Assembly: GCA_003140705.1 (NCBI GenBank)
Contig: PLKU01000461.1
Location: forward strand, 5,814 to 16,901
Reading direction: 5' to 3'
Origin: Acidobacteriaceae bacterium
GTDB taxonomy: Bacteria; Acidobacteriota; Terriglobia; Terriglobales; Acidobacteriaceae
Length of the DNA: 11,088 bases
Below, piece by piece: positions 2 through 10,827 of this stretch. Position 1 is the stretch's first letter; each line of letters starts with the position of its first letter. The notes under the pieces are model-generated. The model searched no databases. It was not told the origin of the DNA and saw nothing but the letters and a program-made list of their open reading frames with translations. The position numbers and the translations under genes were made by a program.

Positions 2-373
2 TGGGTGTTGATCGCTGCGGCCGGATCCGACATTCGGGTAAACGGAAGAACTGTGAATGCGGGCCTGTGGGCTCTCGCCAATAAGGACGAAATTCGCGCG
101 CGCGAGGAACGGCTCTACTTTTCCGCTGAGACGGTCGCCGAAGTCGTTCCATTCCCAGGTGTGGGTCGGCCGGTTTTCTGCGGGCGTTGCAGGTTGCCGA
201 TTGCTGCCGAGAGTCCTGCGGTATGTTGCCCCGGTTGTGGCATCTGGCATCACCAGGGTGGCCACGACAACCGCCTGTGTTGGACGTATGCCCCTGCATG
301 CAGTTGCTGCGATTCCCAAACCGAGCTCGGTGCGGGGCTGACTTGGGTCCCGGAAGAGGATACAACCCGATGA
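2..373 (+). CDS. RING-finger-like zinc protein, putative E3 of the Ubl system (5' end outside window)
   Basis: The frame is open from base 2 with no convincing ribosome binding site in the window, so the gene is probably cut at its 5' end; TTG at 5 is only a formal start. Residues below count from that TTG. Residues 1-55 look like the end of a beta-rich, FHA-like segment (GSDIRVNG, then DEIRA and YFSAE). Residues 59-102 hold a zinc cluster: C59-x2-C62, C74/C75-x2-C78, H82-H83, C92, then C99 with C101/C102. This spacing fits a binuclear treble-clef (RING-type) finger, and prokaryotic RING-like proteins are known next to E1/E2/Ubl genes. The stop overlaps the E1 start in an ATGA, so the two are translationally coupled. 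The inferred role is an E3-like bridge between charged E2 and substrate. It could instead be a non-catalytic zinc adaptor. Confidence 0.7.
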   Translation, partial: WVLIAAAGSDIRVNGRTVNAGLWALANKDEIRAREERLYFSAETVAEVVPFPGVGRPVFCGRCRLPIAAESPAVCCPGCGIWHHQGGHDNRLCWTYAPACSCCDSQTELGAGLTWVPEEDTTR

Positions 374-1425
374 ACAATCTGCGCATCGCGTTGATCGGCT
401 GCGGCAACATTGGCACGCACATGGTCCCCGAACTCCCGCGTATGCCGGGAATTTCGGAAGTGACGCTCTGCGACCCGGATCGCTATACCGCTGAGAATCA
501 CCTAGTGCAAAGCATCGACGCAGCCGACGTAGATCGCGCGAAGGCCGTGGTGCAAGCAGAGAGGCTGCGCCGCGCTAATCCAAGTCTCAAAGTGAATGTC
601 CTTGAGGCGCGCGTGGAGGATGTCCCAAGAGGACTGCTCAAATGTGACCTGATTCTGAGCTGCCTGGACAGCCGCTCCGCAAGACAGCATGTAAATGAGC
701 TGGCTACCCGATTGGGGGTCAATTGGATTGACAGCGGAATCCTCGGGAGCCAGAGCCTTGCGCGCGTGAATGCTTATGTGCCAGGTCATGACACCCCTTG
801 CCTGGAATGCGGCTGGGCGATTGCAGACTACGCGGCCTTAGAAACTGAGTTTGTTTGCGGCGCGGTATCCGGCGGCTCCTACCCGTCGATGGCCTCTTCG
901 CCGTTGGGTGCGGTCGCGGCCTCACTGATGGCCGTTGAGGTCGCGAAAATCCTTAACGGCGATCTGGCGGCATCTGTCGTGTCGAGGCAGGTGATCCTCG
1001 ATGTGCTGAATTTCCGGCTGCTGGTTACCGCCAGCCGGCGAAACCCCTGGTGCCGCTTTGATCACCGGACCTGGCATGTAGAGCCGTGGGAGTGCAGCCC
1101 AGAGGGGGTCACCCTCGGCGCCGCACTCGGGGTGCTCGGCAGTCTGCGTGTTGAGGGCCATCGATTCGTCACAGGGTTGCAATGTCCCGATTGCGGCCGC
1201 CGCGATGAGCAACTTCGGCTAAACCGCCCCTTGACGCGCTGTCCCGAATGCGACCGCCGTATGGTGGCCACCGGAATAGGCACTTTCGACCGTCTCGACC
1301 GCGCGTTTGCAGGAGAGCACACGAATCTGACGCTCGCCGAAATCGGCCTTCGCACTGGAGACATTATTACCGGCGGCGACCGCCACCATCGAATTCAGCA
1401 TCGCATGTTGGAGGCAGCGGCATGA
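370..1425 (+). CDS. E1-like ubiquitin-activating enzyme (ThiF/MoeB family)
   Basis: 351 residues from the ATG at 370, which overlaps the previous stop; AGAGGA lies about 10 bases upstream. The Rossmann adenylation fold starts at once: GCGNIG (10-15), the acidic pair D35/D37, N43, K58, N70-P71 and CLD (98-100), all expected of E1/MoeB/ThiF nucleotide binding. C163 (FVCGAVSGG) sits where MoeB has its active-site cysteine and is the best thioester candidate. C144-x2-C147 matches the first half of the MoeB zinc site. Two further CxxC pairs, C272/C275 and C291/C294, lie in a C-terminal extension, so there may be two zinc sites or a separate ribbon. The likely reaction is ATP-dependent adenylation of the Ubl C-terminus (gene at 2852) followed by transfer to the E2 encoded next. 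Family assignment is firm; the partner is inferred from the operon. Confidence 0.92.
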   Translation: MNNLRIALIGCGNIGTHMVPELPRMPGISEVTLCDPDRYTAENHLVQSIDAADVDRAKAVVQAERLRRANPSLKVNVLEARVEDVPRGLLKCDLILSCLDSRSARQHVNELATRLGVNWIDSGILGSQSLARVNAYVPGHDTPCLECGWAIADYAALETEFVCGAVSGGSYPSMASSPLGAVAASLMAVEVAKILNGDLAASVVSRQVILDVLNFRLLVTASRRNPWCRFDHRTWHVEPWECSPEGVTLGAALGVLGSLRVEGHRFVTGLQCPDCGRRDEQLRLNRPLTRCPECDRRMVATGIGTFDRLDRAFAGEHTNLTLAEIGLRTGDIITGGDRHHRIQHRMLEAAA

Positions 1426-1952
1426 GTGCTCATCTAATCAGTAGCGGCGACCCCGTTTACCAGGGTTTCATGGAAAGCCAGTTAGCAGAGGGCATGGCTC
1501 TTTCTGAGGCAAGTGACATTCTTGATCTCCACGTATGTCCGATGCCTCCACCAAACTTTGTTGCCGAGTTTCACTGCAAAGGTCTCACCCGCGACGATGC
1601 GGGTGAAATCCGGGAAGCCAATGAATCTTTCATGGTTGGTGTCTGGTTCCCGGATGACTACTTAAGGCGGGCAAGCACATTCGACGTTCTGCGCATGCTG
1701 ACGCCCCGCGTATGGCACCCGAATGTCCGTGATCATCTCATTTGTATTGGTGCCCTGACAGGCGGCACCCCTCTGGTCGACATTCTTCACCGGACATATG
1801 AAGTTCTCACGTATCAACTGTGCAATCCCGTGGAGAACAACTCACTGAACAAGGCCGCCTGTGCCTGGGCGCGCAGGAATCAGCATATGTTCCCAGTTGA
1901 TGGTCGGCCGCTGAAGCGGCGTCGTCTGGCCTTGGAGGTTCATCCGTCATGA
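1422..1952 (+). CDS. E2-like ubiquitin-conjugating enzyme (UBC fold)
   Basis: 176 residues. The start is the ATG at 1422, with GGAGG at 1410-1414 and an ATGA overlap with the E1 stop; upstream in-frame starts would run into E1. The central part reads like a UBC core: strand FMVGVWFP (70-77, where E2s have FPxxYP), then the hallmark H99-P100-N101 followed seven residues later by C108 (LICIG), the expected thioester cysteine. Helices with conserved-looking Leu, Tyr and Ala-x-Trp (147-149) follow, as in the E2 C-terminal helices. The role is to accept the Ubl from the E1 and pass it to a target, perhaps with the RING protein. The N-terminal 45 residues are not typical of E2 and carry no motif I recognise. 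The end overlaps the next gene in an ATGA. Confidence 0.88.
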   Translation: MSAHLISSGDPVYQGFMESQLAEGMALSEASDILDLHVCPMPPPNFVAEFHCKGLTRDDAGEIREANESFMVGVWFPDDYLRRASTFDVLRMLTPRVWHPNVRDHLICIGALTGGTPLVDILHRTYEVLTYQLCNPVENNSLNKAACAWARRNQHMFPVDGRPLKRRRLALEVHPS

Positions 1953-2827
1953 GGTTCGATCAGGTCGCAGAATCGACTTTTCGCGTGCTGGGAAAGTGCA
2001 CAGATGATGTCCGGCAGGAAGATCCGTGGCATTGGATTTCGAATGTGCGTAATGGAGCCGTGCTTCAAGTGGAGTCCCGGCTTGTAGAGGGTTTCCTTCA
2101 GCTTGCAAGCTGCTCTGAGTCGCGACTCAGGAGTGTGGCGGAACTGGAGCTTGCCCTGTTGGGAAACTCCGCATTGCCAGGCGGAATTGGCCTGGCACTT
2201 GGCGCTGCCAGCCGCGGACTTCACATGCGCGCCGATATTGCGCTGCCGCTTGAAACTACCCTGGATGAGGAGCGCCTGCGGAACAGGTTGAAATGGACGC
2301 TGGGCGGATTCCATGACGGCGCTGAATTGTTAAAGTCCCTCGGTTCGCGTGCTGGCCGCATCTCCCCACCTGCGGACACGGCTTCCGATGGCGGGCTTGC
2401 CGAACTCGTGCGCGCGTGCGCGTGGAAGTGCGAGGAGCGTGGCCCGAACGACTTTGTCGCGGTCCTCGATTCGGAAGCCGAGCCCGCGGCAAGAATCAGG
2501 GCGACTGAGCACGGTGTTCTGCTCAGCGTTGAACTGGGCAGGGTGGACTCCGCTGCAGCAGCTGCCCGTGCGGGATTGGCAGTATTCCTGTTGACGGCCG
2601 GTGGCCTGCTGCGCATGGCCCGCGCATACGCAGTGGAAACGGAAGCCGGCTGGGGATTCGGGTTTCGTGTCTGTCTTCGTGGCAACCCGGAGCCTCAAGA
2701 GATCGATCACGGACTGGCGGCACTCTCGATTGCGCATCAAAGCACAGCCCGGGAAGCAAGGGCGCTCCTCGATGAGCCGACGGCCAGGTGTTACCTGGCC
2801 GCGCGTGCAATTCCAACCACCAACTAA
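1949..2827 (+). CDS. Hypothetical protein with internal duplication, possibly a T3SS-chaperone/YbjN-like fold
   Basis: 292 residues, ATG overlapping the E2 stop (ATGA), with GGAGG at 1934-1938. I do not recognise a named family with certainty. The two halves (about 25-130 and 160-275) share a layout: a beta segment ending in a hydrophobic strand (GFLQLAS versus GVLLSVEL), a Leu/Gly-rich helix (LLGNSALPGG versus LLTAGGLLRM), beta strands (GLHMRADIAL versus GWGFGFRVCL), then a closing helix. That alpha-beta-beta-beta-alpha-like pattern resembles CesT/YbjN-type chaperone domains as a tandem pair. There is no signal peptide, membrane segment or catalytic motif. Its place between E2 and Ubl suggests an accessory or chaperone role for an E2/Ubl intermediate or substrate. 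Fold and role are inference. Confidence 0.6.
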   Translation: MRFDQVAESTFRVLGKCTDDVRQEDPWHWISNVRNGAVLQVESRLVEGFLQLASCSESRLRSVAELELALLGNSALPGGIGLALGAASRGLHMRADIALPLETTLDEERLRNRLKWTLGGFHDGAELLKSLGSRAGRISPPADTASDGGLAELVRACAWKCEERGPNDFVAVLDSEAEPAARIRATEHGVLLSVELGRVDSAAAAARAGLAVFLLTAGGLLRMARAYAVETEAGWGFGFRVCLRGNPEPQEIDHGLAALSIAHQSTAREARALLDEPTARCYLAARAIPTTN

Positions 2828-2851
2828 CCGCACTGTGAAATGGAGAAGACC

Positions 2852-3145
2852 ATGGGAAAAGTTGAAACTGCAGCAGAGATCCCGTTGGAGTTTTCCGACG
2901 TCAGCGGACAGAAAGTCTTCAACGTCAAGAATGCTCCGGTTGCCAATACTGTCGGCGAGCTCATCTCAGAGATGATTTCTGCCATGAACCTGCCACGTAA
3001 CGACAGCAACGGCGCCCCTCTCACCTATCAAGCGAGATCGGAGCGGGAAGGCCGCCATCTTAACGCAAGCGAGCGCATCGGAGATTCGCTGGAAGCCGGG
3101 GATCGCCTCACGCTGGCGCCAAACATCGACGCTGGGATGAGCTAG
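2852..3145 (+). CDS. Ubiquitin-like protein (beta-grasp), presumed substrate of the E1/E2 pair
   Basis: 97 residues from the ATG at 2852, chosen because GGAG at 2842-2845 lies six bases before it; an in-frame ATG at 2840 would add four residues (MEKT) but has no good ribosome site. The pattern fits a small beta-grasp fold: strands around IPLEF and KVFNV, the amphipathic helix VGELISEMISAM, strands LTYQARS and GRHLNA, then the ending SLEAGDRLTLAP, typical of the last Ubl turn and strand (LxxGDxLxL). The protein ends NIDAGMS. It has no terminal Gly-Gly; a single glycine is followed by Met-Ser. Conjugation, if it occurs, therefore needs either trimming of MS by the JAMM protein encoded next or an unconventional C-terminus. 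The assignment rests on the fold pattern plus the E1/E2/JAMM neighbours. Confidence 0.75.
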   Translation: MGKVETAAEIPLEFSDVSGQKVFNVKNAPVANTVGELISEMISAMNLPRNDSNGAPLTYQARSEREGRHLNASERIGDSLEAGDRLTLAPNIDAGMS

Positions 3146-3171
3146 CAATTGGCAAGCAACGAGGACGGCGC

Positions 3172-4206
3172 ATGCAGCTGAATGTTCCTTACCGCTTTGC
3201 CATTGCCATGTTCAGGGAGGACGGGGCCGAGGTCGGGACCGTGCTTGCCAAACGGGATTGGGAACCGGTGGCAGATTGGACGCGCTTTTACTACCAGCGC
3301 AGGGGTGCGTTGCCCCTCGCCGAGAGTGGCAGCGCGTCTATCCTGCCGCTTTGGGAACGCACCCTGGGAGAGCCTTACTGCCGTGGCTACTGCGTGCAGA
3401 TCGAACAGCCAGACAGGCAGCCGGTCACATCGGATTTCCCCAACACTCACTTCCGCGATTTTGCGAGCTCAGCCGCTTCTGTTTACGTCGAGCAAAAGAA
3501 GCTGCGCGCGGGAGAGTATTACACCTACATGGTGCTGGCGCACCCTGCGCAACCGGGGGGGGCGGCGGCCGGCGGCCTCTCGGTCATTGACGCATCTCCA
3601 AGCCTGCCGGCGCATGATGGATCGCTTGAGGCCTTTCTGGCCAAGGCAACGCCAAGTGGCGTGATCGATAGAGCCGACATGCCGGTTTTTGTCCGCAACC
3701 AGGTGCTTGAAGACGCGTCGGCGCTCACACATCAGCATCAAGGAACGGAAGTCGGTGGAATTCTCATTGGAAAGCTTTGGCGCGACGAAGCTGTGGGTGA
3801 GATATTCGCCGAAATCACAGCGCAGATCACTGCAGAGCACACCATGGGAACCAACGTGAAGCTCACTTTCACAGCGGACACCTGGGCTGCGGCAGACGCC
3901 GCATTGCGGTTGCGCAACCGTGGAGAGATTCCACTAGGCTTCGTTCATAGCCACCCTGTCCGTGAATGGTGTTCGGGAAAAGCCTGCACGCTGGAGGCGC
4001 AGAAGACCTGCCACCTGGCAAAGGACTTCTTCTCCGAGGACGACGAGGCCGTGATGCGGGCCGCGTTTCCGAGGGCCTACAGCGTAGCCATCGTGGCCAA
4101 CGACACAGCGTTCGCTGAGCTGACTTTCAGCATGTTTGGAAATAGAGAAGGGTTGACCAAGCCAAGGGGATTCTACTTTATGGAGGGAGACACCAGTGGC
4201 ACGTAA
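3172..4206 (+). CDS. JAMM/MPN+ metallopeptidase (Ubl isopeptidase) with extra N-terminal domain
   Basis: 344 residues; GAGG at 3161-3164 supports the ATG at 3172. The C-terminal half is a JAB/MPN+ domain: E193 (GTEVGGILIG), H259-S-H261-P and S288-x2-D291, the full zinc-binding and catalytic set. The stretch between HSHP and SxxD is 26 residues, longer than the roughly 7-10 usual, and carries C267, C272 and C280 (plus H281), possibly an extra metal site or an exosite loop. Residues 1-150 form a separate alpha/beta region I cannot assign. The likely role is to cleave after the Ubl C-terminus, either maturing the precursor (GMS end) or removing Ubl from targets. It overlaps the ATPase gene by 11 bases, hinting at coupling with unfolding, as for Rpn11 in the proteasome lid. 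Confidence 0.9.
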   Translation: MQLNVPYRFAIAMFREDGAEVGTVLAKRDWEPVADWTRFYYQRRGALPLAESGSASILPLWERTLGEPYCRGYCVQIEQPDRQPVTSDFPNTHFRDFASSAASVYVEQKKLRAGEYYTYMVLAHPAQPGGAAAGGLSVIDASPSLPAHDGSLEAFLAKATPSGVIDRADMPVFVRNQVLEDASALTHQHQGTEVGGILIGKLWRDEAVGEIFAEITAQITAEHTMGTNVKLTFTADTWAAADAALRLRNRGEIPLGFVHSHPVREWCSGKACTLEAQKTCHLAKDFFSEDDEAVMRAAFPRAYSVAIVANDTAFAELTFSMFGNREGLTKPRGFYFMEGDTSGT

Positions 4207-5890
4207 AACAGCTGGGCAGATGAGTGTGGCAGGCATGCTGGACGAGGTTCTAAGCGAGGGAGAGGGTGCACTGCCTTTCGACGAGCGCTTGGCTGTCTTG
4301 GCGAACCTGCGCGAAAGCAGAATTGAGGGCGCGGGGGCTATTGACCGCGCGATGATGGAGCGAATTGCACGACTCAACCAAGCTTTGTCCACTGTGCAGG
4401 AGGAGCAGGACCAGCTGCGCAGCCTGATCGAAAGACTGACACGGCCTCCAAACTTCCCCGCCGTATTCCTGGCGAACACGGATACGCCCCACGTGAAGGG
4501 CGCACTTGTGCAGACGGACAACGAGCGTCGGGTTGTATTGATCGGAGAAGGAATCGACCCGGAACAACTAACACCTGGTGATGAAGTCCTGCTCAACGGG
4601 GAAAGAAATGTACTGGTAGCAAATTCCGGAGTTCCAAGCCTCCTGACAGGTGAAGTGGTGACTTTCAGCCGGAGCACCGACGATGGCAGGATCGTGGTCA
4701 AGTCCCGCGATGAGGAGTTCGTGATTCTGGCCAAGAAAGCCCTTTGGATCGCCGGGCTCAGTCCGGGTGACCGTCTTCGGGTCAGCCGCAGCACGGGCAT
4801 TGCATTCGAGAAGATGGCTCCGGAGAAGGGAGAGCACTACTTCCTGGAGGCGACGCCTGCAGACTCCTTCGACGATATCGGTGGACTTGATCGGGAGATC
4901 GAATCACTGAAGGAGTTGCTGACTCTGCACATGTTGCAGCCCGCAAAGACCAGCATGTACAAGCTTCCACGGAAGGGTTCTGTGCTGCTGCAGGGGCCGC
5001 CAGGAAACGGCAAAACAAAACTGGCGCGCTGCACATGCAACTGGCTCGGAGGAATGTCAGCGAGCGGACGCGCCCGGTTCATGAGCATCAAGCCAGGCGG
5101 CCTGAATTCAATGTGGTACGGACAGACGGAAAACAACTACCGCGAGATATTTCGAATCGCCCGTGAGGCGGCCGCGGCGGAGCCCGGTGTTCCAGTCGTT
5201 CTGTTCTTTGACGAAATTGACTCAATAGCCCAGAGCCGGGGTGAGTCAGCCAGCCACGTTGACGATCGAATGTTGAACACGTTCTTTACCGAACTCGACG
5301 GACTTGAGAAGCGCGGGAACATTGTTGTCATCGGGGCAACTAACCGGATGGACTCTCTGGATCTTGCATTGCTGAGGCCAGGCAGGATGGGGGACCTCGT
5401 GTTGAACATCCCGCAGCCGACTCGCAAGGGCGCCCGAGCCATTATGAGCTGCCATTTGCCTTTGGACATACCCTACGCCGTCAACGGCGAGGGGCCAGCC
5501 GCGGCCCGTGAGGTTCTGGTCGATCTTGCTGTTGCCCAGTTGTTTGCAGACAGCCGTGAAACCGAACTGGCAAAACTCACGATGCGTGACGGAAAGCAAT
5601 ACACGGTGCGGGCCGCGGATCTCGTCAGCGGGGCGCAACTGGAATCGATCGCACATGCTGCGATTGAGCGCGCCTGCATTCGCGATGTGAGTGGCGGCCC
5701 GGCCGGCGTGTCTATCCCGGACATCAACGCAGCGTTGTCGGACTTTTATCTCGCGGCTCCCCGGGCACTCACTCCACGGAACGCGCGGAACTACATCCTC
5801 AGCCTGCCCCAGGATGTCGATGTGGTCAGCGTGAACCTTTTGGAACGCAAGGTGAGGCATTCGCAACTTTACCGTGTGGAGGCGGCCTGA
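4196..5890 (+). CDS. ARC/Mpa-like AAA+ unfoldase (proteasomal-ATPase type)
   Basis: 564 residues. The start is a GTG at 4196 inside the JAMM gene, fixed by GGAGGG at 4182-4187 with ideal spacing. Order: a leader; a coiled coil (about 48-82); two OB-like beta domains (about 86-150 and 151-207); then one AAA+ module. Seen: Walker A GPPGNGKT (267-274), pore loop W307-Y308-G309, Walker B VVLFFDEID (334-342), sensor-1 N383 and arginine fingers R394/R397 in LLRPGRM. This architecture is that of actinobacterial Mpa/ARC, whose coiled coil captures Pup and threads the substrate through the ring. The C-terminus is SQLYRVEAA and lacks the Gln-Tyr-Leu ending that docks Mpa on the 20S proteasome. The Dop-like and Pup-like genes directly downstream make Pup the likely handle. 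It could also act on Ubl-tagged proteins. Confidence 0.9.
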   Translation: MARKTAGQMSVAGMLDEVLSEGEGALPFDERLAVLANLRESRIEGAGAIDRAMMERIARLNQALSTVQEEQDQLRSLIERLTRPPNFPAVFLANTDTPHVKGALVQTDNERRVVLIGEGIDPEQLTPGDEVLLNGERNVLVANSGVPSLLTGEVVTFSRSTDDGRIVVKSRDEEFVILAKKALWIAGLSPGDRLRVSRSTGIAFEKMAPEKGEHYFLEATPADSFDDIGGLDREIESLKELLTLHMLQPAKTSMYKLPRKGSVLLQGPPGNGKTKLARCTCNWLGGMSASGRARFMSIKPGGLNSMWYGQTENNYREIFRIAREAAAAEPGVPVVLFFDEIDSIAQSRGESASHVDDRMLNTFFTELDGLEKRGNIVVIGATNRMDSLDLALLRPGRMGDLVLNIPQPTRKGARAIMSCHLPLDIPYAVNGEGPAAAREVLVDLAVAQLFADSRETELAKLTMRDGKQYTVRAADLVSGAQLESIAHAAIERACIRDVSGGPAGVSIPDINAALSDFYLAAPRALTPRNARNYILSLPQDVDVVSVNLLERKVRHSQLYRVEAA

Positions 5891-5891
5891 G

Positions 5892-7547
5892 ATGAAGAAA
5901 GAGCAAAAATATAAAGGTCCTCGTAAGATCCTCCCTCTGCTCGTCGGCGCGGATATTGAACTGGGCAATTTCATAGCCAACATCGACCGGATTGGAGGCT
6001 CTGGATATGAGGCATCGCGCGCATTGCTGGCGGAGGTCAAAGGCCAGCCAGGCGATGCCTTGGATGGCCATAGCTACTGGAACTCCCCGGGCAACGCGGC
6101 AAACGGCGCTGCCTCGGGGAAATACGCTTCCACCAACCAGTGGGTCTACAACGTCCAGGACGTGGGTCGCCGCTATCTGCCAAGCACGGGCGGCTGCATC
6201 TACGTGGACCTGGATCATTTCGAAATTTGCACTCCGGAGGTGTTGTCGGCATTTGATCATGTGGCCGCGTGGCACGCGATGCTGCGCATCGCGAGAACCG
6301 CTCTCGATGACGCCAACGGAGGCCGTGCTCGTGACCGGCAGATACAGGTCCTTGTCAACAACACCGACGGGCAGGGAAGCTCCTATGGCAGCCATCTCTC
6401 GTTTCTGATCAACCGGCGCACGTTCGACAATATCTTCCTCCTGCGGCGGCCCCATTACCTTCATGCGCTCGCATCTTTTCAGGTGTCACTTCTGTTACTG
6501 ACGGGACAGGGGAAGGTGGGCTCTGAAAATGGCCGGCCTCATGTGGACTACAACATTACCCAGCGTGCCGATTACTTGGAAACACTCATGGGCGTTCCGA
6601 CCACGATCAACCGGCCGATCGTGAACGCACGGGATGAGGCGCTTTGCGGCCGGGGCTACACCCGTGATTCAGAAGCTCCCGCCCGCCTGCATTCGATCTG
6701 TTTTGACAGCGCTCTGGCCCATGGTTCAGCTCTGTTTCGGGTGGGAACCATGCAGCTCTTTCTCACTTTGCTGGAACGGGAGCTGGTGGACGCGCGCCTG
6801 ATACTACTAGAAGATCCCCTGGCCGCATTGCAGAGCTTCAGTACTGATCCCACGCTCAAGGCGCGCACCCGGCTCATCACCGGCGAGCAGCTCACTGTCC
6901 TCGAGCTGCAAAGCGCTTACCTCGACCTCATCAAGCGTCACGCTGCGCAGGGCGTCTTCGAAGGCGTCGTACCTGACGCGGAGGAGATTATTGCCCTCTG
7001 GGAAGACACCCTTGTGAAGTTTGCCAACGCCGACTGGATGGCTGTGGCGCGCCGAGGTATCGACTGGGTTTTGAAGCTGATGGCCATCGAGCGCGCGATG
7101 GACGAGGATTCGCACCTCGACTGGGACTCCCGGGAATTGAAGGTGCTCGACCATACCTACTCGAGCCTCGGAGATGACGGCTTGTATTGGGCCTACGAGG
7201 CAAGCGGCTTCGTGGAGCAATTGGTCACACCGGCGCGCATTGTCCATTTCACCGAAAACCCTCCAGCGAATACGCGGGCGTGGACCAGAGCGATGCTGCT
7301 GCGGCGCGCGTCGGAAGAGGGTGTGACGGTGACCAGCATGGATTGGGATTCAATCACGTTCAAGGTACGCGGGCGTCACTCATGGCCAACCTATCGCACG
7401 CTCGATATGGCGAGCCCGCTTGGGTTCACTGAGGCGGACGCGAAACCCATTTTCGACGACGCCGGGGACTTCAGGGATCTGCTCGATGGACTTGAATCCC
7501 TGGCGGCCGGCAATGCCTTGACTACGGATGTTCTGACCACAAACTGA
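5892..7547 (+). CDS. Dop/PafA-family enzyme (Pup ligase or depupylase/deamidase), closer to Dop
   Basis: 551 residues from ATG 5892, with GGAGG at 5878-5882 and one base after the ATPase stop; an in-frame GTG at 5874 is less likely. It is a carboxylate-amine ligase (glutamine-synthetase-like) fold. Seen: GADIELG (19-25, where Dop has GxExEYG); IYVDLDHFE with CTPE (103-116), D106 matching the catalytic aspartate; NNTDGQGSSYGSH (156-168); ITQRADY (222-228); RPIVNARDE (241-249); RLH (265-267). The C-terminal region (DPTLKA, KVLDHTYS, ENPPANTRA, WDSITF) tracks actinobacterial Dop well, and a long insert before IYVD fits a Dop loop. The usual HEN after SYG is HLS (168-170), so two normally conserved residues differ. 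Pup already ends in Glu, so no deamidation is needed; the enzyme may attach, remove, or do both. Family is certain, reaction direction is not. Confidence 0.9.
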   Translation: MKKEQKYKGPRKILPLLVGADIELGNFIANIDRIGGSGYEASRALLAEVKGQPGDALDGHSYWNSPGNAANGAASGKYASTNQWVYNVQDVGRRYLPSTGGCIYVDLDHFEICTPEVLSAFDHVAAWHAMLRIARTALDDANGGRARDRQIQVLVNNTDGQGSSYGSHLSFLINRRTFDNIFLLRRPHYLHALASFQVSLLLLTGQGKVGSENGRPHVDYNITQRADYLETLMGVPTTINRPIVNARDEALCGRGYTRDSEAPARLHSICFDSALAHGSALFRVGTMQLFLTLLERELVDARLILLEDPLAALQSFSTDPTLKARTRLITGEQLTVLELQSAYLDLIKRHAAQGVFEGVVPDAEEIIALWEDTLVKFANADWMAVARRGIDWVLKLMAIERAMDEDSHLDWDSRELKVLDHTYSSLGDDGLYWAYEASGFVEQLVTPARIVHFTENPPANTRAWTRAMLLRRASEEGVTVTSMDWDSITFKVRGRHSWPTYRTLDMASPLGFTEADAKPIFDDAGDFRDLLDGLESLAAGNALTTDVLTTN

Positions 7548-7566
7548 ATACAAGGAGAGGATCGAT

Positions 7567-7764
7567 ATGCGCTTTTTGCAACGCAATGACCAACAACGAA
7601 ACAACAGTGGGGGCGATGGCGAGCCAGGCTCAGGCAATGCGCTCGAGCAGGCAAGGGAACAAGGGGACCAACTGCTTTCGGCCGGCGACGAAGCCATCCG
7701 GCGCGCATTGTCCGGCAATTCAGAAAGCTTCCTCAGGGCGAGCAGACAACAAGGTGGAGAATAG
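7567..7764 (+). CDS. Pup-like protein modifier (ends Gly-Gly-Glu)
   Basis: 65 residues, AAGGAG at 7552-7557, 19 bases after the Dop-like gene. The N-terminal 25 residues are polar and Gly/Asn/Gln-rich, apparently disordered. Residues 26-60 form a helical stretch (ALEQAREQGDQLLSAG, then DEAIRRAL), and the end is SFLRASRQQGGE. Mycobacterial Pup has the same size and plan and ends FVRAYVQKGGQ. The ending is Glu rather than Gln, so the gamma-carboxylate is ready for ligation without deamidation. The protein contains no lysine at all, so it cannot be pupylated or chained through lysine. Its helix probably packs on the ATPase coiled coil. It also recalls UBact-type modifiers outside Actinobacteria. 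Small size leaves a little doubt, but the neighbours and the C-terminus make the call strong. Confidence 0.88.
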   Translation: MRFLQRNDQQRNNSGGDGEPGSGNALEQAREQGDQLLSAGDEAIRRALSGNSESFLRASRQQGGE

Positions 7765-8008
7765 GCACGCATTGACAACTCTGCGGGGCCGAAAATGGGT
7801 CCCAATGAGCCTCACGCGCGGGCGTCATTCCGGTGATCGGCCAATGAACGTCGGGCGATCCAAGAATGGCGCGGATCGCAAACTTCTTTCCAAAGCAGCC
7901 TGACTTGGGCGGTCTGGTGAACAGGGCGCGCTTGCTTCTCAGGCGTGTGTTGAATTGCCCATTGATAGGCCGCGACCCAAGTCTCATTGGAGCGGGCGGG
8001 GAGACCGA
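7765..8008 (+). other. 244-base gap between the Pup-like and Clp-like genes
   Basis: This is the only long gap inside the operon. A perfect TTGACA stands at 7772-7777, but no good -10 box lies 16-18 bases after it, so an internal promoter is only possible. A 65-codon frame (7866-8063) begins MARIANFF and carries a basic leucine-rich helix (RARLLLRRVL); it lacks a clear ribosome site and runs 55 bases into the next gene, so I do not call it a gene. No convincing terminator is visible, so transcription could continue into the Clp-like gene. Confidence 0.35.
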
Positions 8009-9175
8009 ATGCCAAAGGCAAATGAATCCACTTCTCTCGATCCCGCACTCGAAGCAAAGCTGAAGCGCTTGCGCCTGCGGGTGGAACTCTCCGACGAAGA
8101 GACACTCACCGTCAAGGGCGTCCCCGCCAACCAACTCCACTTCAACAAGGGCAGGACCAACCTCTTGATCAAGTGTTCCAGTGGGCCAATGCCATGTGTT
8201 GTGTGCGTGGACGATGACCTGGAGTACACCGGGGCAGACCGGGCGCTTGCTCATGCCTTTATTTCCGCCCCGACGCAACAAGGATGGCGGATTCTGACAC
8301 TCGCTACGTCAGGCGGAAGCGCTCAAGGGGAACTGACCGCAGGACTCGAGTACGCCCTCGACATTCTTGGTGTAGACGAGGAGTGCGGGGCCACTCCAGC
8401 TCCTCCAGAAGTGCAGAGTAGGAAGCTATTGCGGGCGTGGGCAGAAAGCCTGATCGAGAGCGGAGACGCCGAACGAATCCCTCCAACTCTTTATCGAGAT
8501 GAGGAGATCGAGCAAGTGGCGTCAGCGACTCTCAGTTGGGAGGGACGGCTCCCGCTGATTCTTGGAAATGCGGGAACTGGCAAGACCAATCTGCTCCGCG
8601 GCGTTGCCAACCTCCTGGACCGCCGTAACCAAGAGGTCCTTTCTGTGAACATCGGTGCACTGATGGCAGGCGCCCTTTTTGAGACTGGGCGGGAATCCCT
8701 GCTGGCGGCTCTGCTCCGGGAAGCCACCGATTCGGGGGCAGTTCTTGCGCTTGAGCAGGCTGAATGGGCATTGAATGGCACTCCCCGTACCTTGGTGTTG
8801 CTCCGGGACGCACTGGATCGCGGCGCCCGGCTCATCGTCACATCCACGCCGGACCAGGAGCGCCGTTTCTCGGTGCATCCGATTCAATCGCGGCTCGAAA
8901 TCGTCAGGCTGAATGAGCTTTGCGCGAGTGACACTCGTCGCATCCTGGAGCAACTCCGGCCTTCCATTGCGAGTCATCACGGTGTTGAGATTGACGAGGA
9001 AGTGGAACGAGCTACTGTGGAGCGGTCTCTCTCCATGAGCGGCGCGCTTCCTGGTAAGGCGGTGCGACTGCTCGACGCAGCGGCTGCACGTACGAATCTG
9101 ACACGCGGTAATCGTGTCACTCTTGTAGACGTATACTTGGCTGCCTCCAGGATGCATGCGCCGGAGCTTGCTTAA
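8009..9175 (+). CDS. Clp/Hsp100-like single AAA+ domain protein with degenerate Walker B
   Basis: 388 residues from ATG 8009, supported by GGGGAG at 7998-8003; the frame continues upstream to an ATG at 7955 without a ribosome site. Residues 1-130 form an unassigned alpha/beta N-terminal domain. The AAA+ part resembles the first ring (D1) of ClpA/ClpB/ClpC: Walker A GNAGTGKT (186-193), then VLSVNIGALMAG (210-221, as the Clp LxxGxLvAG segment) and LPGKAVRLLDAAA (347-359, the sensor-2 LPDKAIDLLDEA motif). Walker B reads VLALEQ (245-250) where Clp has hhhhDE, so the catalytic Asp-Glu is Glu-Gln. The pore-loop tyrosine of Clp D1 is also absent (GALFETGRE). It may bind ATP but hydrolyse poorly, acting as adaptor or switch rather than unfoldase. 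Same-strand position behind Pup suggests membership in the system. Confidence 0.8.
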   Translation: MPKANESTSLDPALEAKLKRLRLRVELSDEETLTVKGVPANQLHFNKGRTNLLIKCSSGPMPCVVCVDDDLEYTGADRALAHAFISAPTQQGWRILTLATSGGSAQGELTAGLEYALDILGVDEECGATPAPPEVQSRKLLRAWAESLIESGDAERIPPTLYRDEEIEQVASATLSWEGRLPLILGNAGTGKTNLLRGVANLLDRRNQEVLSVNIGALMAGALFETGRESLLAALLREATDSGAVLALEQAEWALNGTPRTLVLLRDALDRGARLIVTSTPDQERRFSVHPIQSRLEIVRLNELCASDTRRILEQLRPSIASHHGVEIDEEVERATVERSLSMSGALPGKAVRLLDAAAARTNLTRGNRVTLVDVYLAASRMHAPELA

Positions 9176-9177
9176 GC

Positions 9178-9383
9178 AGTTGGCGCTGTCCGAGGAGCGC
9201 AGTATTGCCAAACTGGCGCCGTGCTGCCCAAACCGCGTCCTCTCGGCTCATGCCTTGGCGAATATGCCGCTCCGCCAGAAGCTCAATGTGCGTTTCGACT
9301 TCGTCGCCAAACTCGCGATTCGTATTTCCTTGACCGAACAGCCCACGGAGTCTGGATATGAATCGGAGAATCAAAGAGGTCAT
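9178..9383 (-). pseudogene. Truncated ABC (MacB-like/ADOP) permease, N-terminal remnant
   Basis: Starting at ATG 9383 on the minus strand, the frame gives a short N-terminal stretch typical of acidobacterial duplicated orphan permeases: EFGDEVETHIELLAERH, then IRQGMSREDA and ARRQFGN. Such proteins normally run to about 800 residues with transmembrane and MacB periplasmic domains; here similarity stops after about 68 residues. The remaining 20 codons of the frame read antisense through the end of the Clp-like gene and stop at 9117. It sits two bases after the PadR remnant, the usual PadR-permease order. It is clearly broken, and the break falls next to the operon's final stop codon. Confidence 0.7.
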
Positions 9384-9903: not shown

Positions 9904-10827
9904 TTACCTATTCTGCAGACCAAGCGCCCAGGTTTGGCCGACCAGATCCATTCCGAACGAGTGATGCCGCTTCTCTTCGAGAAGCGTGAAACCAGCCGCC
10001 TGATAAATCTTGCGAGCCGAGACGAGCACGTCGTTGGTCCAAAGCATGAGCTTGCGGTAGCCCAGTTCTTGCGCTCGCTCGTTGCAGAGACCCACCAGAC
10101 GCGAGCCAACCCCCAAACCTCGGGCTGCTGGCTCTACGTAGAGCAGCCTCAGCTTCCCAACGTCGGGATCGTCTGTTTTCATGAGAAACACCGAGCCCAC
10201 GACCTGATCGTCAATCTCCGCAATCCATGCATCTTCGCGTGTCGCGTCGAATTGCGCAGAAAAGTTCCCCAAGATTTGCGACACAAGTCCCTCATAGGTC
10301 CAATCCCAGCCGTATTCGCGATGGTAGAGAACCGCCTGACGGTGAGTGATCCACCCAAGATCGCCAACTTTCAGCGACCGGAACTGCACATGCTGTGCCG
10401 ACACCGGCTTTGCCTTAAGGACATCTTGGATCTCCTGCATATTTTTCGCCAGGCGCTGGCGGTTTTCAGCAATGAGCGGCGCAACAAGTGCCTCGATCTG
10501 CGCCGCAGTTCCGTCATTCAGTTTCTTAAAAGCCTTCTTACCGGACGCAGTAAGCGACAAGAGCTTTTGCTTGCCGTGCTTTGGGCTGACCCGGCTTTTG
10601 AGTAACCCAGCATTTGCAAACCGAGCAACAATGCGGCTGACGTGCGCTTTGTCCATGCCCAGACTCCTGATGATCGTTGCTGCTGACTGCTCCCCAGACT
10701 GCGCGAGTTCATACAGCACTCTTGCTTCAGCCAGGGTGAGGTCGCTTTCCGGCAGATGCTTTGCCAAAAGACCAATCTCACGGGTGTAGAAGCGATTGAA
10801 GCTGCGCACTTGTTCGACGATGGACAT
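9904..10827 (-). CDS. MarR family regulator fused to GNAT N-acetyltransferase
   Basis: 307 residues on the minus strand, ATG at 10827 with GGAGG (complement of 10834-10838) six bases before it. Residues 1-140 are a MarR winged helix: LTLAEARVLYELA (30-42), the recognition-helix region MDKAHVSRIVARFANAGLL (58-76), then the wing HGKQKLLSLTASGKKA. Residues 147-300 are a GNAT acetyltransferase with the acetyl-CoA loop RGLGVG (236-241) after LRLLYVEP, and IYQAAGF (274-280) late in the fold. MarR-GNAT fusions are a known type, in which an acetyltransferase is tied to its own DNA-binding domain; targets are usually unknown. It is transcribed against the operon and separated from it by debris, so it is probably a chromosomal neighbour. 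A perfect palindrome directly upstream suggests autoregulation. Confidence 0.93.
   Translation of the reverse strand: MSIVEQVRSFNRFYTREIGLLAKHLPESDLTLAEARVLYELAQSGEQSAATIIRSLGMDKAHVSRIVARFANAGLLKSRVSPKHGKQKLLSLTASGKKAFKKLNDGTAAQIEALVAPLIAENRQRLAKNMQEIQDVLKAKPVSAQHVQFRSLKVGDLGWITHRQAVLYHREYGWDWTYEGLVSQILGNFSAQFDATREDAWIAEIDDQVVGSVFLMKTDDPDVGKLRLLYVEPAARGLGVGSRLVGLCNERAQELGYRKLMLWTNDVLVSARKIYQAAGFTLLEEKRHHSFGMDLVGQTWALGLQNR

Follow-up and report, generated by a model that had tools for sequence, protein, structure and literature searches.

A bacterial locus joining a ubiquitin-like conjugation cascade to a Pup, Dop and ARC ATPase module

Tagging by ubiquitin-like modifiers (Ubl) and tagging by Pup are standard examples of convergent invention. 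Can two such chemistries be combined on one pathway? A conserved locus that carries both tags and one motor, with no recognised proteasome, now makes this question testable, and with it the purpose of proteasome-free pupylation outside Actinobacteria and the way in which a Ubl cascade became wired to a bacterial AAA ATPase. The locus lies in an 11,088-base stretch of DNA (hereafter, the window) that forms the end of a 16,901-base contig (PLKU01000461.1, our C54) from an Acidobacteriaceae bacterium, whose assembly is 73% complete and comprises 582 contigs. The plus strand of the window reads RING-E1-E2-X-Ubl-JAMM-ARC-Dop-Pup and, after 244 bases, a Clp-like gene. From RING to Pup, neighbouring genes overlap by 4, 4, 4 and 11 bases or are otherwise separated by 1 to 26 bases; the 11-base overlap, between JAMM and ARC, is the junction between the Ubl half and the Pup half of the locus and is present in 4 loci. 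The window edge coincides with a two-N gap in the contig, where the RING N-terminus is cut. An original prediction, made from the letters of the window alone, had assigned both tagging systems to one operon; the genes do lie at the places it gave, overlapping or nearly touching, and the combined locus is confirmed as real and wider than first read. Below, "hybrid" designates a locus or genome with both halves, and "solo" a Ubl half without Pup genes.

Independent promoters for the two halves had been named as evidence that would speak against a single operon. A sigma-70 scan, which may not suit the host phylum, found one site, outside the operon, compared to 2.6 in shuffled sequences, and no internal promoter was seen; a terminator scan gave 9 compared to 9.4. 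Both scans being no better than shuffles, a division of the operon by promoters or terminators was rejected.

The gene order recurs in other genomes. A scan seeded with the Dop protein, with one genome per species, yielded five loci. Four of them (three in Acidobacteriota and one in Planctomycetota) share the order of the window from RING to Pup; the fifth, L005, has ARC-Dop-Pup-PafA only. With loci added by E2 searches, the order is found at 10 loci including that of the window, in Acidobacteriota and Planctomycetota (lineage A). Two of these are in two pieces: the G173 locus is interrupted inside JAMM by contig ends, and G321 has a RING-E1 pair and a second RING-like stretch at L157:7447-9536, on a 387 kb contig, and the rest at L078. 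A second deep planctomycete lineage (lineage B, about 25-40% identity by tblastn) shows the same order at three loci. One of them, L138, carries the full set, with a Pup ending NRSGQ; L135 has everything except a recognised Pup; and in G646 the set is spread over two contigs. That the window joins two loci by faulty assembly or binning might be suspected from the fragmented state of its genome and from the two-N gap at its edge. However, 9 other lineage-A assemblies also have the two halves joined, and 7 of these carry RING to Pup on one contig, N-free in the fetched stretch for 5 of the 7; an artefact is thus refuted by independent loci and its probability is negligible.

We next consider how strictly the halves go together. 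In 396 sampled Acidobacteriota genomes, Pup_ligase was found in 10 and an E2 profile match in 12. Four of the E2 matches (one of them the window's) are close, with E below 1e-60, and all four genomes have Pup_ligase; the 8 with distant matches do not. With the window genome excluded, Pup_ligase occurs in 9 of 395 genomes and the close E2 in 3, all three among those 9, a coincidence with a chance probability of 8e-6. Among 392 sampled Planctomycetota genomes, 37 have Pup_ligase and 31 an E2 match; three of the matches are close (one being that of the seed genome) and all three genomes are hybrid. Pup_ligase is also present in 14 of the 31, including 5 hybrids. Loci of these 31 genomes were viewed except in G668, G599 and for the second E2 match of G806; the Pup locus was viewed in 14 of the 37. 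Altogether, the close E2 family (E below 1e-40) has a Pup half in the same genome for 10 of 10 loci: four from the Dop-seeded scan, that of the window, and five (G321, G206, G173, G504, G468) also found by the E2 search. Distant E2 relatives present another picture. No Dop, Pup or PafA gene was seen in the fetched stretch, short in some cases, at 8 of 8 further Acidobacteriota loci and at 23 of 24 further Planctomycetota loci. The 24th, in G491, has its E2 (1.2e-20) on a 4.6 kb contig and its Pup half on another contig, with no Ubl genes within 8 kb upstream. Routine separation of the halves in relatives, the other observation named as speaking against a single pathway, is seen among distant E2 relatives and fails within the close family, where they are together in every case and a second lineage repeats the order. 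In G774, a RING-like stretch lies beside Dop-Pup-PafA on a 5.7 kb contig.

Trees were built from E1, E2 and JAMM and from ARC, Dop and PafA of 10 loci. Both part Planctomycetota from Acidobacteriota (92/93 and 99/99); other, mostly weaker branches differ. This common split by phylum indicates that the halves travelled together, and it is nearly certain, as judged from such sequence comparisons, that one transferable unit carries both tagging systems. The tree of the Pup half places the Pup-only loci L005 and L082 within the group of Acidobacteriota hybrids (88/99). Given this placement, L005 is more simply read as having lost its Ubl half; the L082 contig starts near ARC, so that an upstream Ubl half could not show there. 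In a separate E1 tree of 35 rows, lineage A and lineage B each form one clade (96/95 and 100/100), and the two group with solo loci L093/L094 and L104 (100/100), apart from 20 further solo loci. A scan of 32 solo loci for a full-length ARC-like ATPase yielded two, in L094 and L104, each with pup_AAA as the best NCBIfam model (120 and 88 bits, respectively); the L093 contig ends before the ARC position. From the E1 tree and these ATPases, the association of a Ubl half with ARC appears to predate the link with Pup or to be common to it. Downstream of ARC, at L094:5963-8311 and L104:7097-9839, lie genes for a PRTRC_A-like protein and another ThiF, with scores that fall short of the cut-off of either model. 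This would fit an exchangeable second tagging module, a PRTRC-like one taking the place of Dop-Pup-PafA. An AAA match near another solo locus, L105, was discarded as short and at chance level. At solo locus L091, an AAA ATPase resembling anti-phage IetA lies beside E2 (10251-11321).

Features of the locus, with positions in the window unless a locus is named, and the basis of each assignment
Feature	Position	Strand	Basis
RING-type zinc protein (Prok-RING_1-like), 5' end cut	2..373	+	Open reading frame; Prok-RING_1; invariant Cys
E1-like adenylating enzyme (ThiF)	370..1425	+	Pfam ThiF; C163 invariant
E2-like conjugating enzyme, HPN-Cys108	1422..1952	+	Weak UQ_con; HPN and Cys in alignments
X, predicted tandem CesT/YbjN-type chaperone fold	1949..2827	+	Predicted structure
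Ubl modifier, predicted ubiquitin beta-grasp, C-terminus NIDAG-MS	2840..3145	+	Predicted structure
JAMM/JAB peptidase, N-terminal domain and Cys-bearing insert	3172..4206	+	Prok-JAB; invariant residues
ARC/Mpa-type AAA ATPase, C-terminus not of HbYX type	4196..5890	+	pup_AAA; C-termini compared
Dop-like depupylase/deamidase	5892..7547	+	Pfam, NCBIfam and PDB comparisons
Pup-like modifier ending GGE	7567..7764	+	Place, relatives, GGE end
Optional ClpA/B-D1-like AAA protein, degenerate Walker B	8009..9175	+	NCBIfam; alignment
Second Pup_ligase gene, taken as PafA	L009:2578-4698, same contig, outside the window	-	Pup_ligase; PDB matches

In the Pup half, ARC combines AAA and proteasomal OB domains (NCBIfam pup_AAA, 292 bits). 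The adjacent gene of the ligase family (Pfam Pup_ligase, E 5e-82) was rightly called Dop: Dop scores above PafA both in NCBIfam (231 versus 177 bits) and in PDB comparisons (177 bits with a depupylase, 94 with a Pup ligase). Its first catalytic motif reads G[ATG]D[IV]E in the 9 aligned hybrid Dops versus GIEQE in the classical L085, a change of the first Glu to Asp that is also seen in the Pup-only L005. In L006 (9965-11627), the Dop gene is split between two reading frames where two Ns mark a contig gap, probably an assembly artefact. The short Pup reading frame has no Pfam or NCBIfam match on its own; as predicted, it ends in GGE, and it aligns with Pups of 11 other loci that end in GGQ, GGE or SGE. 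The first reading missed a second Pup_ligase gene, which lies on the same contig upstream of the operon and divergent from it. Its product begins GVETEY and matches Dop and PafA structures in the PDB about equally (170 and 151 bits); the region C-terminal to the ligase domain matches no Pfam family. We take this gene to encode the PafA ligase. Elsewhere PafA follows Pup on the same strand (L004, L007, L078, L081, L096, L097), starting 2 bases after it in five other loci, or follows the Clp-like gene (L079), or lies downstream on the opposite strand (L006, L008). With PafA on the window's contig the set is complete: two modifiers, their ligases, their removers and one ATPase.

The Clp-like gene had been proposed as the unfoldase of the pathway. 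Its product of 388 amino acids has one AAA module and no second one, and its Walker B motif is degenerate, reading LE[QHR] in 4 of 4 proteins. The gene is seen at 4 of 10 lineage-A loci and was not found at the other 6 (the G173 contig ends just after PafA). With the motif degenerate throughout and the gene so often not found, an unfoldase role for this protein was rejected.

In the Ubl half, the key residues singled out by the original prediction are invariant in the five loci aligned: C163 of E1 (ThiF, Pfam E 4e-31, with Cys pairs near its C-terminus), HPN and Cys108 of E2, and E193, H259, H261 and D291 of JAMM (Prok-JAB, E 1.1e-5). The E2 of the window matches UQ_con weakly (E 0.016, below Pfam's cut-off); an HPN..C pattern is present in 113 of the 120 E2 homologues listed, and by eye the other 7 also keep HPN and Cys. 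The RING protein likewise matches Prok-RING_1 weakly (E 0.9); the model matches all five aligned members, at best with E 2e-6, and cysteines 59, 62, 75, 78, 92, 99 and 102 are invariant among them. Between the HxH motif and the metal-binding Asp of JAMM (residues 259-291, window 3946-4044) lies a Cys-bearing insert; C267, C272 and C280 are invariant in 5 of 5 loci, and the insert is possibly an extra zinc site. X is predicted to adopt a tandem CesT/YbjN chaperone fold. In a profile comparison X of L104 gave E 2.8e-5 (74% probability), and the comparison with lineage B was not significant; in L097, tblastn found no X, and an 808-base space separates E2 from Ubl.

Assignment of the Ubl to its family is based on a predicted ubiquitin beta-grasp. 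Its C-terminus, NIDAG-MS, has no GG. The motif N[IV]DAG followed by a variable tail of 0-14 residues ends 118 of the 120 homologues listed, a pattern that points to predicted trimming of the Ubl to a C-terminal Gly. Of the Ubls of the second lineage, three carry ..VSAG and two of them end there. Lys25 is near-invariant, being present in 12 of 12 hybrid Ubls. It was rejected as a hybrid-specific acceptor for Pup, Lys also being present in 14 of the 26 solo Ubls that have a residue at this position.

Is a proteasome involved? A search with PF00227 of 10 lineage-A and 3 lineage-B genomes returned HslV, weak unclassified matches or nothing, and no classifiable 20S proteasome in any of the 13. The weak matches are L014, L015, L016 and L124, in genomes G062, G064 and G321; NCBIfam assigns no family to L014, L015 or L016. 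By comparison, G070 and G120, two Acidobacteriota genomes with non-hybrid Pup loci, have true 20S genes next to the Pup ligase. The C-terminal docking motif of ARC has a penultimate aromatic residue, according to the relevant passages of PMC8223512. Tyr or Phe occupies this position in none of 11 hybrid ARC C-termini (..YRVEAA and similar); the ARC of the Pup-only locus L085, from the 20S-bearing G070, ends in RYL. The same passages describe Corynebacterium glutamicum as lacking proteasomal subunits and its ARC as proposed to disassemble pupylated ferritin (PMC8223512). Pupylation in this organism is a precedent for an outcome limited to unfolding.

Two chemically unrelated tags and a single motor in some soil-type bacteria suggest that both tags feed one machine. 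We give a somewhat better than even chance to a dual-tag system in which both would converge on one ARC unfoldase. Its starting points are observed: which genes are present and in what order, that they are inherited together, which folds are predicted for them, and that neither a classifiable 20S nor a docking motif was found. The convergence and every enzymatic step we infer from gene anatomy. JAMM would trim the Ubl tail to ...DAG and would also deconjugate Ubl; E1, E2 and RING would attach the glycine end of Ubl to target proteins, and X could act, as chaperone or receptor, on unfolded segments or on Ubl itself. PafA would attach Pup through its C-terminal Glu, directly for GGE and SGE ends and after deamidation by Dop for GGQ and SGQ ends, and Dop would remove Pup. 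The ARC ring would then thread proteins bearing one or both tags, unfolding or disassembling them with no 20S proteasome involved. The original suggestion of two tags feeding one unfoldase thus survives as the leading model, with ARC rather than the Clp-like protein as the unfoldase. A bolder version, which is conceivable though doubtful, posits a constant chassis (RING-E1-E2-X-Ubl-JAMM-ARC) and an exchangeable second module (Dop-Pup-PafA or PRTRC-like ThiF/JAB), with one unfoldase reading both tags and processing a target only if both agree.

Several observations weigh against convergence on ARC. The hybrids are not one clade relative to Pup-only L005 and L082 in the Pup-half tree (70/81), and where lineage B meets L093/L094 in the E1 tree, the branches joined are long. 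Pup genes are missing from L094 and L104, and in nine Planctomycetota genomes the E2 match and the Pup ligase sit on separate contigs and no hybrid was seen. G062, G064 and G321 retain PF00227 matches that are unclassified; given the incompleteness of the window genome, a contig with 20S genes could be missing, and completeness is not given for several other genomes. ARC could also serve the Pup pathway only. This last point leads to an alternative in which two independent pathways are merely co-transcribed and co-transferred as a stress or defence island, Pup using ARC and the Ubl half acting apart. Each half does have its own ligase and remover, and each occurs alone: Pup halves persist without a nearby Ubl half (L005, L140; L085 is also Pup-only), and distant Ubl operons have no Pup gene in the fetched stretch. 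Yet the order is fixed in two deep lineages, the junction between the halves overlaps in four loci, the close E2 family was seen without a Pup half at none of its 10 loci, and a full-length ARC-like ATPase adjoins the Ubl half at two loci that lack Pup. We consider this alternative unlikely. It is less probable still, in our estimate, that one tag controls the other, with Ubl itself pupylated or pupylation switched on by the Ubl cascade through modification of Dop, PafA or ARC. Such control would agree with the asymmetry of the locus, in that a Pup half can lack a Ubl half and a close Ubl half is not seen without a Pup half, and with the conservation of Lys25 in hybrid Ubls, although this residue is not specific to them.

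The tags might instead mark invader proteins in an anti-phage or conflict system, action on ARC being secondary. This reading, compatible with the others, is a tentative one. The passages of PMC13373217 that concern Bil and Bub count them among known or putative immune pathways, and distribution is patchy, with Pup_ligase present in only the window genome of 60 searched. Flank genes picked by eye include conflict-type neighbours at 3 of 8 relatives' loci: an SLATT_1-like gene and a pair of genes with TIR domains directly preceding the hybrid locus (L004:1-3627), a DUF4062-AAA-WD40 gene (L078) and a PDC-S01 ATPase (L079); the IetA-like ATPase at L091 could be added to these. On the other hand, no clear conflict gene was seen by eye in the flanks of the other five loci or on the window's contig, and the matches of PADLOC models to E1, JAMM and the two ATPases cover these proteins only in part. 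No close E2 relative was found in viral contigs, for which reason a viral carrier was rejected.

The dual-tag arrangement can be set beside several known systems. Burroughs, Iyer and Aravind reportedly predicted, in 2011, bacterial operons with RING, E1, E2, Ubl and JAB. The present locus shares those five protein kinds in one operon, and the similarity to Prok-RING_1; here, however, they are joined in fixed order to ARC-Dop-Pup. With Bil, Bub and type II CBASS it has in common the E1/E2/Ubl/JAB logic, its RING, ARC and Pup module being additional. Its E1 and E2 are encoded separately, in contrast to the PADLOC E1-E2 fusion models, which match E1 over part of the adenylation domain only and do not match E2. 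Likeness to the PRTRC cassette is confined to L094 and L104, with their PRTRC_A-like protein and second ThiF; the window has no such genes. UBact is a Pup-like modifier accompanied by PafA, Dop, ARC and 20S in gram-negative phyla. Going by that general description, Pup, PafA, Dop and ARC are all present here and 20S was not found. The actinobacterial Pup-proteasome system likewise has a Pup with a G[EQ] end, paralogous Dop and PafA, and an ARC ATPase in adjacent genes; the hybrids differ from it in lacking a classifiable 20S and the ARC docking motif, and in having a full Ubl cascade upstream on the same strand. Pup and PafA are found outside Actinobacteria, and those of Plesiocystis and Rhodopirellula, as excerpted from Iyer 2008 (PMC2588565), have no proteasome genes nearby. 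A Pup ligase and Pup without neighbouring proteasome genes is what the hybrids share with these bacteria and, in the passages cited above, with C. glutamicum (PMC8223512). The Plesiocystis/Rhodopirellula type has a transmembrane insertion and a membrane-protein neighbour, and the excerpt mentions no E1, E2 or Ubl neighbour (PMC2588565). A literature search, with subscription papers outside its scope, found no description of a combined Ubl and Pup locus, which is not proof of priority.

Two further reading frames lie on the minus strand of the window. A short one at 9117-9383, by eye an N-terminal piece of an acidobacterial permease, overlaps the end of the Clp-like gene. The other, at 9904-10827, is convergent with the operon and appears by eye to encode a fusion of a MarR regulator with an acetyltransferase of the GNAT type.

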